Of a DNA stretch of 38,063 nt, positions 31,601-36,904 are shown in pieces; the stretch's first letter is position 1; each line of letters opens with the position of its first letter. The stretch is from Acidobacteriaceae bacterium. GTDB lineage: Bacteria; Acidobacteriota; Terriglobia; Terriglobales; Acidobacteriaceae. The DNA lies in contig JANXUC010000160.1 of assembly GCA_025352065.1 (NCBI GenBank), positions 1 through 38,063 of the forward strand, in the 5' to 3' direction. The notes under the pieces are model-generated. The model worked only from the letters and a program-made list of their open reading frames with translations. It searched no databases and was not told the DNA's origin. Both the position numbers and the translations under genes were made by a program.

Positions 31601-33108
31601 AGCTTCAGCAGGTACCGAATGGTGGAATAGAAATCCGTCGGCTCCAGCGTGCGGCTTTCAAGGCTTGTAGCGTCCTGATTCTCGTACAGCTTGATGTTGA
31701 ACTTTAGCCGGCCCACGCGAGAGAAATCGTACTTGCGCGGATCGAAGAACATGCCATGGAACAGCGATGTCGCCGTATCCAGCGTCGGCGGATCGCCGGG
31801 ACGCAGCTTACGGTAGATTTCGATCAACGCTTCCTGCGGCGTCTTCACCGCATCGCGGCGCAGCGTCTGGCTGATGACCGTGCCTACGTCGTCGCGCTCT
31901 GGGAAGAACAAGTTCATTTCGACAACGCTGGAATCCATCACCTTCGCCAAAATCTCTGGCGTGATTTCGGAATTCGCTTCCAGCAAGATGTCTCCGGTAG
32001 TCGTGTCGACGATATCGCTCGCCGCCCACGCACCCTCGAGATCAACCCCATCAATCTCGATTTCGGTGATCTTCGCTTTCTGAATGTCCTTCAGAATCGC
32101 CGCACTCACCTTGCGCCCGGAGTGAACAATCTCATCCCCAGACTTGGTCGCTACGCGATGCGTCAGCTTCATACCCAACAAATTTGTGGGCTTATCGGTA
32201 GCCGCATCGACGTTCCAAAACAGCTTCTTGGCACGAACTGTCAGGCGATCCACGGTATAGAACGTCCGCAGAATGTCTTCGCTGGAGCGCAACCCTAAAG
32301 CGCGAAGGAAGATCGTGCCCAGGAATTTCCGCTTGCGATCAATGCGGACATACAGCAAGTTCTTCTGGTCGTATTCGAACTCGACCCAAGATCCACGGTA
32401 CGGAATGATCTTCCCCAGGAAGTATCCCGGAGGCGCTTTCTCAAAGAACACGCCCGGCGAACGGTGCAACTGGCTGACGATTACGCGCTCGGTACCGTTC
32501 ACAATGAACGTACCGTTCTGCGTCATCAGCGGCACATCGCCAAAGAACACTTCCTGTTCCTTAATGTCACGAATGCTCTTGTTGCCGGTCTCCGCATCCT
32601 TTTCAAAGATGGTGAGACGCAGCGTAACCTTCAGCGGCGCGGAGTAGGTCATCCCGCGCTCTTCGCATTCGGTCACGTCATATTTCAACTGCAAGCCAAC
32701 CGGGTCGCCGCATTTGTTACAGAAGTCCGGCGTATTCGCATTGAACGTACCGCACTTGTTGCACAGCACTTCGCCCGGATGGAACGGGTCGGTGGTAATG
32801 GTGAATCCGCAGCTCTTACAAGTCGACCGGAGGTGATGCAGGCCCTTCAAGTGGCCGCACTTGCACTCCCAGTTACCAATGGCAAAATCTACGAATTCCA
32901 ATTTGGAAACATCGCGGAAGTCGGTGACCGGAAACACGGACTGGAATACGGCCTGCAGGCCTTCCTGGTCCCGCTCACTCGGCAGCCGATCCATTTGCAA
33001 AAAGCGGTCGTACGAACGCTTCTGCACTTCAATCAGGTTTGGAATGGCGATCGTCGCCGGAATCTTAGAAAAGTCAAAACGCTTACGGTAGGTGGTCTTC
33101 TTCGGCAT
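28648..33108 (-). CDS. rpoB: DNA-directed RNA polymerase subunit beta
   Basis: Beta forms the catalytic centre with beta' and is the rifampicin target. The 1486-residue product carries the rifampicin region [19 protein letters not shown] (Asp 585 corresponds to E. coli D516), then RPxxxG-type sequence with the usual sensitive residues His and Ser present. A segment at residues 80-135 absent from E. coli beta contains eight cysteines in four pairs (C82, C84, C97, C100, C116, C119, C130, C133), which look like two zinc sites in the protrusion/lobe region. I believe this insertion is shared by related acidobacteria, from memory. GGGAG lies eight bases before the ATG at 33108. Confidence 0.98.
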
Positions 33109-33444
33109 TCAGAGGCTCCCAACTCGCAATGCGGCTGTCTGCCGCATGAGCGGTTCCGCTCAAAAAAAATCTCAACGCCCTCGGGACAACAATTCCCTAG
33201 GGCGCCGTTCGTGGCGCTCGTGCTTGATCGTATGTGTCGTTACGTACCAGTTGCTACAGGCCTGTCTCCGTCCCGCCTAGTTGCGGAACAGGTTGCCAAC
33301 AACCACTGCCGTATTCGGTCTCCGCCCGCTTCCCGCGGATTCGGACCGGCAGCTCTCTTCGGATGGGCGGAAGCGGTGTTATCTAGATGATAACACCGCT
33401 TCGCCGGATTCACCCGGAATATTTTTCGCCCACGCCGCCAGCCA
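33109..33444 (-). promoter_or_regulatory. Structured rplL-rpoB spacer with four hairpins
   Basis: This 336-base gap has no gene. It contains, from the rplL side: AAGCGGTGTTATC paired with its complement around five bases (33371-33401, 13 perfect pairs); an interrupted hairpin GCCCT-c-GGGA with TCCC-t-AGGGC (33177-33203); GAGCGG/CCGCTC around TT (33148-33161) with a T-run just upstream of it on the minus strand; and ATGCGGC/GCCGCAT (33129-33147) before the rpoB binding site. In E. coli this gap holds an attenuator and an RNase III site that set the ratio of L7/L12 to polymerase. A similar role here is inference. Confidence 0.55.
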
Positions 33445-33822
33445 CTACTTAACTTCGACGACAGCGCCAGCTTCCGTGAACTTCTTCTTGATGGTCTCGG
33501 CCTCGTCCTTGGAAACACCTTCCTTGATGTTCTTCGGCGCCCCATCGACCAGATCCTTGGCTTCCTTCAAGCCCAAAGCGGTCACTTCGCGTACGGCTTT
33601 GATTACATTGATCTTATTCGCGCCCACTTCCTTGAGCACAACGGTGAATTCCGTCTTCTCTTCCGCCGGAGCCGCTGCCGCTGCCCCGCCGCCCGCCATC
33701 ATGACCGGCGCTGCCGCTGCCGCAGACACGCCAAGCCGCTCTTCCAGCTTCTTCACCAACTGCGAGGCTTCCAGTAGCGACAAGCCTACGATCGATTCTT
33801 CCAACTGCGCCAAATCCGCCAT
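33445..33822 (-). CDS. rplL: 50S ribosomal protein L7/L12
   Basis: L7/L12 forms the flexible stalk that recruits translation GTPases. The 125-residue product has the N-terminal dimerisation helix pair ([22 protein letters not shown]), an Ala/Gly/Pro hinge (about 35-55), and the C-terminal domain with [22 protein letters not shown] and [13 protein letters not shown]. The length is normal. GGAG lies about nine bases before the ATG. It follows rplJ after a 247-base gap that holds an inverted repeat. Confidence 0.98.
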
Positions 33823-34003
33823 TGCTGTTCTCCGTTTTGATTTATCTAAATTTGGTTAAAACCGTTCATCTCATTACCGGTTCGCCTGGTTTCCAGTGCG
33901 CCCGTCCCGCCAACTCCACGCCAGACATCGTGCAATCGCGGACCGCGCAACCCCTGCTGCCGGTAACTCAATCTTTGCCGAATGTGAAATTTGGTAACTT
34001 TAT

Positions 34004-34071
34004 AATTTGTAATGTGAAACCCAAAGCCATTCGGCACAGAGTTAAATTACAAAATTACACATTACAAAATT
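34004..34071. repeat. AT-rich inverted repeat starting at the rplJ stop codon
   Basis: AATTTGTAATGTG (34004-34016) is the inverted copy of CACATTACAAAATT (34058-34071) with one bulged base. The right arm overlaps the rplJ stop codon (34070-34072). A 15-base direct repeat (34051-34065 and 34066-34080, 13 of 15 identical) covers the end of rplJ, so part of this is a duplication of the 3' end of the gene. Confidence 0.6.
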
Positions 34072-34603
34072 ACACATTCTGAAACTTGCCCTTCTCCACG
34101 CCCTGCCCAATCACCACGGCCACGTTGCGGCCAACAGCGTTGAGCACACGCGCCAACTGCGTACCCGGTGCATTCATCAACATCAGCAGCTTGGCATAAA
34201 TTTCTTCCTTCGACGGCAGCGCCGCAAGAGCATCGATTTCCTTCACGGAAATCGTTTTGCCATCCACCACGCCAGCCTTGAAAGCAAATTCCGGGTTGTC
34301 TTTTACGTACTTCGAAAGCGCCTTCGCCAGCGCAACCGGATCGCCTTTGGTGTACGCAATCGATGTCACGCCTGTCAGATTCGTCAGGCCCGCTTCGATC
34401 TTTGTACCCTTGGCCGCGCGTTCTGCCAACGTGTTCTTCACCACGCGATACTTCGCACCCGCTCCGCGAACCGCTTTGCGCAGTTCGAAATCCTGCGCCA
34501 CGGTTAACTTGTTGTAAGTGGCGACGATCGCGCTCGATACGCCCTTCAATTCTTCCGCCAGCTCGGCGGTCTGCTCAATCTTCTTTGCCTTGGTAACGGC
34601 CAT
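34070..34603 (-). CDS. rplJ: 50S ribosomal protein L10
   Basis: L10 anchors the L7/L12 dimers to the 50S stalk base and in many bacteria represses its own operon. The 177-residue product starts MAVTKAKKIEQTAELAEELK, has SSAIVATYNKLTVAQDFELRK and AGAKYRVVKNTLAERAAKG, and ends in the C-terminal helix that binds L12 (KLLMLMNAPGTQLARVLNAV). AAGGA lies about eight bases before the ATG. It follows rplA after 111 bases of AT-rich repeat sequence. Confidence 0.97.
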   Translation of the reverse strand: MAVTKAKKIEQTAELAEELKGVSSAIVATYNKLTVAQDFELRKAVRGAGAKYRVVKNTLAERAAKGTKIEAGLTNLTGVTSIAYTKGDPVALAKALSKYVKDNPEFAFKAGVVDGKTISVKEIDALAALPSKEEIYAKLLMLMNAPGTQLARVLNAVGRNVAVVIGQGVEKGKFQNV

Positions 34604-34638
34604 TTTTCGTCCTTTTCTACTTTCCAGATGTCGTCAAA

Positions 34639-34716
34639 AATTTGTGATTTGCGATTGGGTGATCTGAAAACCGAATCCCTCAAATCACAAATCGCTAAAT
34701 CGCCAAATCACAAATT
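34639..34716. repeat. AT-rich inverted repeat starting at the rplA stop codon
   Basis: AATTTGTGATTTGCGATT (34639-34656) is the inverted copy of 34698-34716 with one bulged base; the right arm overlaps the rplA stop codon (34715-34717). A second partial copy (AAATCACAAATCGC, 34682-34695) gives a direct repeat on the right side. The whole would form a long hairpin in the rplJ leader. Confidence 0.65.
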
Positions 34717-35428
34717 AACTTACAATTTTCGCCGCGGCTTCAATCGGCAACACGTCGATCCGAATCCCCGGACCCATGGTTGAACTCAGCGTTGCGCCCT
34801 TAATGTACTTGCCCTTCGCCGCCGCCGGCTTCGCTTTAATCACGCTGGAAATCAGCGTAGTAGCGTTGTCCACCAGCTTCTCCGGCGTAAACGAAATCTT
34901 TCCTACCGGCGAATGCACCAGCCCAGTCTTATCGGTGCGGAACTCAACTTTACCGGCCTTGATTTCTCGAATCGCATTGGCAACATCGAGAGTCACGGTT
35001 CCGGTCTTCGGATTCGGCATCAAGCCCTTCGGACCCAGCACTTTACCCAAACGGCCCACCGATTTCATCATGTCCGGCGTGGTGATAAGAGCGTCGAAGT
35101 CCGTCCAGTTCTCTTTCTGGATCTTCTCCACCATCTCCTCGCCGCCAAACAGATCGGCGCCAGCCGCCTCGGCCTCGCGCAGCTTTTCACCCGCCGCGAT
35201 CACCAGGACCTTCTTGGCCTTACCGAGCCCGTGTGGCAGCACAACCGTGCCACGCACCATTTGATCCGCGTGCTTCGGATCGACGCCAAGACGCAGCGTC
35301 ACTTCCACGGTCTCGTCAAACTTGCTGAATTTAACTTTTTGCAGAAGCGGTACAGCTTCCTGCAGGATGTACGGTCTCGCTTCCACTTGCTTGCGAGCCT
35401 TGGCTACATTCTTACTAACCTTCTTCAT
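34715..35428 (-). CDS. rplA: 50S ribosomal protein L1
   Basis: L1 forms the mobile stalk that moves deacylated tRNA out of the E site, and often represses translation of the rplK-rplA mRNA. The 237-residue product starts [20 protein letters not shown] and includes [48 protein letters not shown] and [19 protein letters not shown]. The frame extends nine codons further, but GAGGA about eight bases before ATG 35428 fixes the start. Confidence 0.98.
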
Positions 35429-35521
35429 CGCGCTTTTCCTCGTCTCCCACCGCACCGCCGTAAACCGGCGAACCGTGGTTGTATGGACTGAACTGACTAA
35501 TGGTTAACCACTTACAAAACT

Positions 35522-35547
35522 GTCATCCTGAGCGCAGCGAAGGACCC
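35522..35547. repeat. Dispersed palindromic repeat between rplK and rplA
   Basis: The element begins GTCATCCTGAGC and ends GAAGGACCC. TCCT (35526-35529) pairs with AGGA (35541-35544), GA faces GA, GC pairs with GC, and the loop is GCA. This is the same design as at 422-448. The rest of the 181-base rplK-rplA gap shows nothing else I recognise. Confidence 0.6.
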
Positions 35548-35609
35548 CTACATCCTCAACTTCGAAACGCCCTCTCAGGCTTTCTTGCCGCACAGCGGTT
35601 CTGACTTGC

Positions 35610-36041
35610 CTACCCCACAACCTCAAGACCCATGGACCGCGCCGTTCCGCGAATGCTCTTGATGGCTGCTTCCACCGATGCCGCATTCAGATCCGGCATC
35701 TTTTGTTTAGCGATCTCTTCAATCTGCTTCGCCGTAACCTTGCCAACCTTATCCTTATTCGGAACGCCAGAACCCTTCGCAATCCCCGCCGCGCGCTTCA
35801 ACAGAACCGCTGCCGGAGGCGTTTTAGTGATAAAGGTGAACGTGCGGTCACTGTAGACCGTGATCACAACTGGAACAATCAGCCCGTCGAGTTCTTTCTG
35901 GCTGGTTCGCGCGTTGAATTGTTTGCAGAACTCCATTATGTTAACCTGCGCCTGACCAAGCGCGGGGCCAACTGGAGGAGCCGGCGTTGCCTTACCTGCT
36001 GCGATTTGCAGCTTGACTGAACCTGTTACTTTCTTCGCCAT
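35610..36041 (-). CDS. rplK: 50S ribosomal protein L11
   Basis: L11 binds 23S rRNA at the GTPase centre and is needed for RelA activation and thiostrepton action. The 143-residue product has [20 protein letters not shown] (proline-rich N-terminal switch region), [31 protein letters not shown] and the C-terminal rRNA-binding part ending [14 protein letters not shown]. The length is normal. The ATG at 36041 has only a weak GGAA upstream. Confidence 0.98.
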
Positions 36042-36140
36042 TCTGTTCCGTTTTCAGTCCGCAAGGCCAGGTCTAGGATTTTCGGCCTGGACACCTGCAG
36101 ACGTCCCTTTCGTAAACTTCAGAACTCTTGTTTCAAACTT

Positions 36141-36237
36141 GTCATTCCGAACGGCTGAATCGCGAGGATTCTGCTTTCGGGCTTCAACTAGGAAACCGGG
36201 TGCCCCATCCTTGTCGCGCTCTTTGCGACAGGGCGGG
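36141..36237. repeat. Two repeat elements in the nusG-rplK spacer
   Basis: The 212-base gap holds an imperfect member of the dispersed family (36141-36171: GTCATTCCGA at one end, GAGGATTC at the other, short CG/CG inner stem) and, from about 36203 to 36237, a hairpin whose arms TTGTCGC (36211-36217) and GCGACAG (36225-36231) extend imperfectly to CCCC and GGGCGGG. I recall the second as a repeat seen in other acidobacterial genomes; this was not checked. Confidence 0.5.
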
Positions 36238-36253
36238 AGACGCGGACCCAAGC

Positions 36254-36904
36254 CTACGACAAAACTTTCTCGACCTGTCCAAACTCCAACTCCACCGGCG
36301 TCGACCGCCCAAAAATCGTAACCATAACCTTCAGCGTCTCGCGATCTTCGTTGACATCGTCCACCACGCCCGTAAACGTTGCGAACGCGCCTTCCGTGAT
36401 GCGCACGGTTTCGTTCTTCTCGTACTTAACCTTCAGCCGCGGCTTGTCTTTGCTGACCGCCACGCGGTTCACAATCTGATCGACTTCTTCCGCCGAAAGC
36501 GGCGTCGGCTGCTGCCCCGTTCCAACGAATCCAGTCACGCGCGGCGTCGCCTTCACCACGTGCCAAACATCGTCGTTCATGTCCATTTCCACCAGCACGT
36601 AGCCCGGATACAGCATGCGCTCGCTGGTGTATTTCTTGCCGTTGCGGACCTCGGTCACCGATTCAGTCGGGATCAGCACGCGGCCAATCTTGTTCTGCAA
36701 CGCGAACGCCTGCACTCGCGATTCCAGCGACTCTCTTACCTTGCGCTCAAACCCCGAATACGCGTGCAAAATGTACCACCGCATATGCGCATTGATCGGC
36801 GCTTCCGCAGGTACTTCAGTCGTCGGAGCCGTCGTCGCATCCGAAACAGACGCGGGCAAAGGCGCTGCTGGTGTCTCAGGTTCGTTGCTGATTTCTTCCG
36901 GCAT
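36254..36904 (-). CDS. nusG: Transcription termination/antitermination protein NusG
   Basis: NusG binds RNA polymerase and links it to Rho or to the ribosome. The NGN domain starts at about residue 40 ([20 protein letters not shown]) and contains [15 protein letters not shown] and [13 protein letters not shown]. The C-terminal KOW domain follows ([19 protein letters not shown] through [11 protein letters not shown]). In front is an Ala/Pro/Thr-rich arm of about 35-40 residues that E. coli NusG lacks. I chose ATG 36904 (216 residues); GTG 36934 would add ten residues. secE ends 45 bases upstream. Confidence 0.95.

Follow-up and report, generated by a model that had tools for sequence, protein, structure and literature searches.

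What is an inverted repeat doing at the very end of a ribosomal protein gene, and is it a peculiarity of that gene or a member of a wider class? The question is raised by a stretch of 38,063 nucleotides (the window), which constitutes contig 13 of a draft Acidobacteriaceae genome of 4.25 Mb in 183 contigs. The ORF list gives the minus-strand gene order nusG, rplK, rplA, rplJ, rplL, rpoB, the names of which are our own reading of the proteins. The RplJ protein is present in 71 of 80 relatives. Across 30 loci the rplA–rplJ gap ranges from 23 to 169 nt, and it is 111 nt in the window. The features under study are the following.

34715..35428, minus strand: rplA (ribosomal protein L1), from the ORF list, its protein serving as tblastn query; stop codon at 34715-34717, gene end within the rplA hairpin
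34639..34716, minus strand: rplA-end heptad-armed hairpin, words TTTGTGA / TCACAAA, between the rplA stop and the rplJ start
34070..34603, minus strand: rplJ (ribosomal protein L10), from the ORF list; named from the protein and its setting
34070-34072, minus strand: rplJ stop codon, inside the rplJ-end hairpin
33975..34084, minus strand: rplJ-end heptad-armed hairpin, 7/8-nt words of GTAATTTT / AAATTAC type, from the word-blind scan and fold
34046..34075, minus strand: exact 15-nt tandem duplication (direct repeat), two units, in the stop-side arm of the rplJ hairpin
34055..34068, minus strand: stop-side arm of the best ungapped inverted repeat at rplJ
34006..34019, minus strand: distal arm of the same inverted repeat, 93% complementary to 34055-34068
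33445..33822, minus strand: rplL (L7/L12), from the ORF list; next gene downstream of the rplJ hairpin

Two hairpins of one class in a single operon

A preliminary description had placed the terminal codons of rplJ within a 15-base tandem duplication. The duplication is exact, with units at 34046-34060 and 34061-34075, and the second copy contains both the stop codon and the last codon. The inverted repeat reported at the same place also exists, but its best ungapped arms are 35 nt apart and not 41. The terminal codons, which had been taken as one arm, fall outside these ungapped arms; they pair further out, where the RNA fold joins 34073-34079 to 33980-33986 (GAAUGUG/CACAUUC; coordinates counted by hand). 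The rplJ inverted repeat exceeds chance expectation, because the fold of 33965-34090 (z = -3.55) was better than each of 200 shuffles. The fold of 34632-34722, which holds the rplA hairpin, gave z = -4.79, again with 0 of 200 shuffles as good.

The best-scoring period of both hairpins is 8, with 7 and 8 mixed; the rplA arms are TTTGTGA/TCACAAA heptads and the rplJ arms are made of TTTGTAA-type words. Both are members of a single class, in which words of 7 or 8 nt stand in tandem and the two arrays form an inverted pair. The remark that the two sequences differ is not quite right, since TTTGTAA and TTTGTGA are variants of one word family; a TTTGTGA/TTTGTAA switch also occurs at an orthologous joint of two related species, described below.

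A scan of 33100-36300 for a stem followed by a T-run gave 0 terminator-like sites, where shuffles gave a mean of 4.2, and the combination that marks intrinsic terminators, a G+C-rich stem and then a T-run, is absent from this interval. TTTTT does follow the rplA stem, but this stem is A+T-rich and its loop lies beyond the limit of the scan. At gathering level, Rfam returned one tRNA and nothing else in the window; with E up to 1, the rplA hairpin matched the microRNA family mir-988 (E 0.076, 22.7 bits, cut-off 72), which we took as chance.

The neighbouring spacers hold features of their own. Behind the hairpin, the rplJ–rplL spacer (33823-34069) contains a conserved stretch, GGGTTGCGCGG, GTCTGGCG, GCACTGGAAAC, common to most relatives (L139-L168), and GTCTGG occurs in 29 of 30 such spacers (24 aligned). 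This stretch is perhaps an L10-binding leader between genes; it had no Rfam match up to E 1, and RNAalifold on a poor alignment of the spacers gave no structure. Between rplL and rpoB, 33366-33405 forms a 17-pair hairpin with one bulge (z -8.5) in which the scan saw no terminator-like site; the E. coli rplL–rpoB spacer carries an attenuator and an RNase III site. Between rplK and rplA, 35521-35544 contains, as minus-strand TCCTTCGCTGCGCTCAGGATGACA, one half of a further dispersed hairpin type, TGTCATTCTGAGCGAAGCGAAGAATC with an inverted partner, which occurs at L031:19468-19552 and L038:17743-17829.

Inverted copies of gene ends show no excess

The preliminary description had suggested that such hairpins are built by duplication of the gene end, and had held that a lack of excess over controls would refute it. 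We compared the last 20 nt of each gene with the next 100 in 41 stretches totalling 669,828 bases, for which home-made gene calls supplied 545 usable ends; the sample included, besides the window, seven stretches picked for a one-arm match. A score of at least 8 was reached at 16 of the 545 ends, against 15.4 in shuffles and 17 at intragenic positions; for a score of at least 9 the figures were 4 of 545, 3.8 and 0. With no excess of inverted gene-end copies, the proposal is refuted on its own terms. The first 20 bases 3' of the stop found a partner scoring at least 9 in 23 of 545 cases, against 4 for the last 20 bases, a figure that has no shuffled control and includes ordinary hairpins. The earlier observation is real, but its frame was wrong.

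A word-blind scan identifies hairpins with period-7 arms

Hairpins were next sought by gapped self-complementarity, regardless of their words, and their arms were tested for periods 4-12. The sample comprised 111 stretches (1,147,571 bases) from the genome of the window, a genome of the same family (G003), a third genome (G006) and 30 rplJ loci; 20 of the G003 and G006 stretches had been picked by a one-arm match, and L139 and L163, copies of the window and of L107, were removed before periods were counted. The 1.15 Mb yielded 126 hairpins. Periodic arms were seen in 40 of them, the period being 7 in 29, 8 in nine, 9 in one and 12 in one. The other 86 showed no period-7 peak (period 7 in 7), and a dinucleotide-shuffled copy yielded 19 hairpins, none of them periodic. 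Overlap with called genes was below 35% for 38 of the 40 periodic hairpins vs 59 of the 86 others.

Within the genome of the window the word types are ATTTGTG, AGTTTCG, AGCTCTT, AGTTGCC, CGAGTAC and GGCTGTC. Several words occur in one genome; loops differ between copies, and arm length and word variants change from copy to copy. The rplJ hairpin is one of many small heptad-armed hairpins behind stop codons in its genome. At the rplJ–rplL joint itself, inspection of 49 genomes of the order showed tandem words in 7 (G000, L147, L148, L150, L255, L258, L263), with GTAATT words in three of the seven; the detector, which overlooks elements that are short or have decayed, picked up G000, L255 and L263 alone.

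Two further patterns were noticed by inspection. Heptad or octad hairpins with different words appear to cluster: some stretches of at most 20 kb (L022, L121, L178, L180) hold 3 to 5 of them, and many stretches hold none. Octad or nonad hairpins of the CCACGGAGACACGGAG kind, recognised by eye at the positions below, show either arm order and come from three phyla.

L121:11257, L153:1372, L159:80, L178:4530, L182:16938: octad/nonad hairpins of CCACGGAGACACGGAG type

Periodic hairpins lie directly behind stop codons

Placement was analysed for 39 periodic hairpins, the GC-rich period-12 hairpin L132 being dropped, with home-made gene calls in which start codons are less certain than stops. Their neighbours are same-strand genes in 31 cases, convergent in 3 and divergent in 3; of the remaining two, one falls within a called gene and the other at an edge. 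The share of same-strand joints (31 of 37) is barely above background, and the strand arrangement is unremarkable because the background joints number 738 same-strand, 109 convergent and 117 divergent. The distance to the stop is another matter: in 26 of the 31 same-strand pairs the periodic hairpin starts at most 16 nt from the upstream stop (median gap 4 nt), vs 8 of 29 other hairpins in this set and 10 of 70 in the second set described below. To this extent the earlier supposition of a repeat family at stop codons is borne out, the class recurring genome-wide. The element contains the stop itself only sometimes (gap below 0 in 4 of 31), which matters for annotation: as rplJ illustrates, the final codons and the stop of a genuine gene can lie within such an element.

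Could the position be a neutral by-product? Replication slippage and strand switching might make and lengthen imperfect hairpins, which would last only where they do no damage and which short spacers would then put beside stops. We regard this as rather unlikely. It gains from the small size of the leftover spacers, 16 of 31 being below 30 nt, and from arms that share a word and not its exact variants, as expected if units are duplicated within each arm. Against it, stop adjacency persists in longer spacers: where at least 30 nt is left over, 9 of 15 elements start within 10 nt of the stop vs 3.1 expected (P = 0.0006) if an element may lie anywhere in the spacer but for the 12 nt that precede the start, and non-periodic intergenic hairpins give 2 of 28 vs 3.9 expected. 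Nor does slippage alone predict a preferred unit of 7.

The second set covered eight genomes: G163, G366, an Acidimicrobiia MAG and Desulfonema magnum, together with Chloroflexi, Peregrinibacteria, Planctomycetes and another acidobacterial MAG. Here 28 of 37 elements lay within 16 nt of a stop, or at least 24 of 33 without the four G366 elements that are orthologues of G163 ones, the stretches of both these genomes having been taken around elements. In spacers of at least 30 nt the count was 10 of 20 vs 2.5 expected, and none of 20,000 random placings reached 10. The mixed Chloroflexi, acidobacterial, Peregrinibacteria and Planctomycetes part contributed only 3 stop-adjacent elements of 8, and non-periodic hairpins of the second set showed a slight excess too (7 of 67 vs 2.8, P 0.014).

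The architecture recurs with other words in other phyla

The exact TTTGTGA hairpin pattern was found in 50 stretches; going by accession prefix, these belong to 33 genomes, spread over many phyla. The list includes, by eye, non-heptad hairpins (for example L053, L057 and L096, which are one shared element, L068, L074, L082) and non-independent entries (L052 and L093; L086, which is G003). A degenerate pattern matched 20 of 21 such genomes, whereas its reversed control matched none; one Acidimicrobiia MAG had 42 placements, overlapping ones included, and two other genomes had 6 apiece. Six further genomes, all picked for holding a TTTGTGA hairpin, were sampled in 40 stretches, five of which cover placements already known (L170, L173, L201, L207, L208); each genome had period-7 or period-8 hairpins, many with other words, such as GTTTCAA, GAATTGA and AGGTGTT in Desulfonema, AGGTCAA in Acidimicrobiia and TGGTGAT in Chloroflexi. 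The same architecture, often with other words, is thus seen in a few sampled genomes of other phyla, and it is not only an artefact of MAGs because the Desulfonema magnum sequence is the complete genome of a named strain. A strict class pattern matched just 2 of 299 genomes, so exact patterns are a poor guide to the frequency of the class; a loose one gave 20, 8, 3, 14 and 9 placements in five genomes, many without heptads by eye.

Shared words were considered as a sign of transfer and rejected. Between phyla, 94 of 908 pairs shared a word vs 22 expected, an excess that is uninformative because the genomes were chosen by TTTGTGA. Without TTTGTGA-like words, 5 of 252 pairs did so vs 3.7 expected, and 92 of 300 shuffles reached that figure; such chance-level sharing also speaks for slippage and strand switching.

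The words themselves invite the reading that a protein recognising heptads in tandem binds the arms, as omega/ParB does at the WATCACW sites of plasmid pSM19035, which occur as 7-10 consecutive heptads per site, at least 4 contiguous ones being needed for a stable complex (PMC9499535). AATCACA fits WATCACW letter for letter, and AAATCAC words lie at 34682-34711. We nevertheless hold this to be very improbable: many elements carry quite other words, and most lie behind same-strand genes, only 3 of 37 being between divergent ones. Omega_Repress (PF07764) had 0 matches in the genome of the window, a search in which the control was silent as well.

Arm order is fixed for one word, and arm matching is loose

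For the TTTGTGA word, the T/G arm came first in all 56 pairs, of which 17 (G000, G003, G006; by subtraction) were unselected, the exact-pattern loci having been preselected for order and at least one duplicate (L086, which is L102) being counted twice. The reverse order was matched in none of 26 genomes, a list in which one genome probably figures twice. Such constancy would suit a mobile, MITE-like or REP-like family whose transposase reads the terminal words and prefers stop regions, a reading that we consider quite unlikely; the loops, arm lengths and variants that differ per copy, and the different words within one genome, speak against it. Beyond this word, G exceeds C in the first arm in 58 vs 18 hairpins overall. 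Once TTTGTGA-like words are set aside the counts are 32 vs 18 (P 0.065), and a skew is present in non-periodic hairpins as well (146 vs 100, P 0.004). G+T exceeds A+C without TTTGTGA-like words in 33 vs 17 (P 0.03), or 25 vs 9 for period 7 only (P 0.009), non-periodic hairpins showing no skew (134 vs 115). Since these figures come from several measures tried at once, a general polarity rule is left aside.

We also ranked the match between an element's own arms against same-word arms of other elements. The mean percentile was 0.38 in G003 (n=7) and 0.39 in Acidimicrobiia (n=11), a weak 0.65 in G000 (n=7), and 0.79 in a mixed group from different genomes (n=28). The fine pairing of the arms is not clearly under selection, judging from sequence, because own arms match no better than others in G003 and Acidimicrobiia. 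The idea that the arms are templated copies of each other was dropped, within-genome arm matching giving it no support.

Between two species, joints are occupied or empty and arms outlast loops

G163 and G366 are species of one genus, with three flanking proteins 86, 88 and 90% identical. All three pattern-matching G163 elements have a counterpart at the corresponding joint of G366, and an element on G366 contig 53 has one in G163. In 20 larger stretches, the detector reported 15 hairpins for G163 and 21 for G366, among them GC-rich ones that resemble coding sequence; both flanks could be located in the other species for 4 and 7 hairpins, respectively. Seven joints were comparable: four retain the element, two are empty in G163, and one has, by eye, other tandem words. 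The L218/L237 comparison was uninformative because the downstream neighbour differs. The elements absent from the relative are an 87-nt heptad element and a 77-nt period-9 element, the latter starting ~2 bases behind the stop by eye. Empty and occupied orthologous sites are what a transposase-driven family would leave, but no target-site duplication was evident by eye in the two empty-site alignments, whose flanks have diverged. The class is intergenic and stop-adjacent, occurs in several sampled phyla and can be present or absent at an orthologous joint of related species.

In the four retained pairs, with arm borders set by eye, 204 of 250 aligned arm positions are identical as against 31 of 98 loop positions. 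Third codon positions of the next gene gave 0.74, 0.57, 0.75 and 0.79; in the 0.57 pair, codon positions one and two are also low (0.76, 0.77), so that this ungapped comparison has probably slipped. The alignments demonstrate that, as far as sequence tells, retained elements conserve their arms and exchange their loops, a disparity that counts against slippage and strand switching as the whole explanation. The loops probably change by replacement and not by point mutation, because they are ~30% identical where third codon positions are mostly near 75-79%. In pair 4, whose arms (21/28, 20/34) are no more alike than third codon positions, one species has TTTGTGA and the other TTTGTAA in both arms, with the stem preserved; pairs 1, 2 and 5 have no such paired word change.

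A proposed role for the hairpins in polycistronic messages

Taken together, these patterns let us infer a function and an origin for heptad hairpins. The class consists of small intergenic hairpins of about 45-150 nt; each arm repeats a word of 7 nt, or sometimes 8, in tandem, and the two arrays converge. We lean slightly towards REP-like mRNA hairpins of the heptamer-repeat kind, which would be inserted at operon joints and then kept as stems. The hairpin would survive where the ribosome-binding site of the next gene stays untouched. In the polycistronic mRNA, a stem directly behind the stop would block 3'-to-5' decay of the upstream message, as REP hairpins do, and may also slow terminating ribosomes. 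In the window, the hairpins would determine how much rplA, rplJ and rplL each yield relative to one another, without transcription termination. The absence of terminator-like sites from 33100-36300 speaks for the REP-like reading, which draws on only four retained pairs, in which an arm beside a start codon could be conserved as a leader and not as a stem.

A more speculative proposal, to which we would give a low probability, is that one sequence-blind process, active in many phyla, adds ~7-nt units to both sides of an inverted junction at stop-codon joints. Words would then be local while unit length and place are conserved, with loops replaced faster than synonymous change and arms kept. 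To account for the unit of 7, such a process would require an unknown enzyme that extends ends or processes hairpins.

Comparison with known repeat systems

The closest known elements are the convergent GGGAATC heptads of Xanthomonas, which have unit length, convergence and stop proximity in common with the present class. The Xanthomonas GGGAATC and Nostoc GGGGAYT heptads are degenerate, intergenic and 2-26 units long, lie mostly between same-strand genes with few between divergent ones, and stand close to the ORF on their 5' side, at 28 nt on average, with its stop codon overlapped in some cases; two genomes hold 70 and 75 convergent inverted pairs (PMC4692102). The periodic class likewise has tandem degenerate 7-nt units in convergent, intergenic, stop-proximal pairs. 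In those genera, as that source describes them, one G-rich word per species has been studied as a quadruplex former, whereas the words here mostly have no G-runs (TTTGTGA and TTTGTAA have none); several words occur per genome, the hairpin is the unit, and several phyla are involved.

In being short hairpins behind stop codons, the elements also resemble the REP elements of enterobacteria. REP copies within 15 nt of a stop, reported to affect translation, number 446 of 4,072, and 260 of 496 in an earlier cited study; REPs so placed stall ribosomes (Liang 2015, cited in PMC12306157; counts from PMC12306157). The placement of this functional subset is close to that found here (26 of 31 within 16 nt). 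REPs share consensus motifs, whereas here no conserved loop or palindromic core is visible by eye, the loops differ, several words occur per genome and the arms are periodic. The terminal inverted repeats and homologous interior of a MITE are not seen either, by eye, in view of the variable arms and differing loops. A RAYT transposase is a feature of many REPs.

Tandem heptads are known elsewhere. Cyanobacterial STRRs have seven-nucleotide tandem units, as the present class does; they are not known to have been described as forming convergent, stop-codon pairs of many different words. PMC4692102 names three such heptanucleotides, repeated in tandem, in Calothrix. The TAACTGA repeats of Beggiatoaceae are tandem intergenic heptads, some by ribosomal protein genes, that also occur in unrelated phyla without a known mechanism; they differ in being direct repeats mostly just upstream of start codons, with 169 direct sets and one inverted (PMC4679880).

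A literature search, mostly outside subscription journals, found no description of a unit of 7 combined with free word choice. REP hairpins close to stops would offer the nearest known function, but the preferred unit of 7 together with free word choice is explained neither by REPs nor by the Xanthomonas heptads. In the literature searched, heptamer repeats have been described word by word and in single groups; here, many words in several phyla, with occupied and empty sites between sister species, make it testable why the unit is 7, why it sits at the stop codon, and whether the hairpins tune operon output as REPs do.
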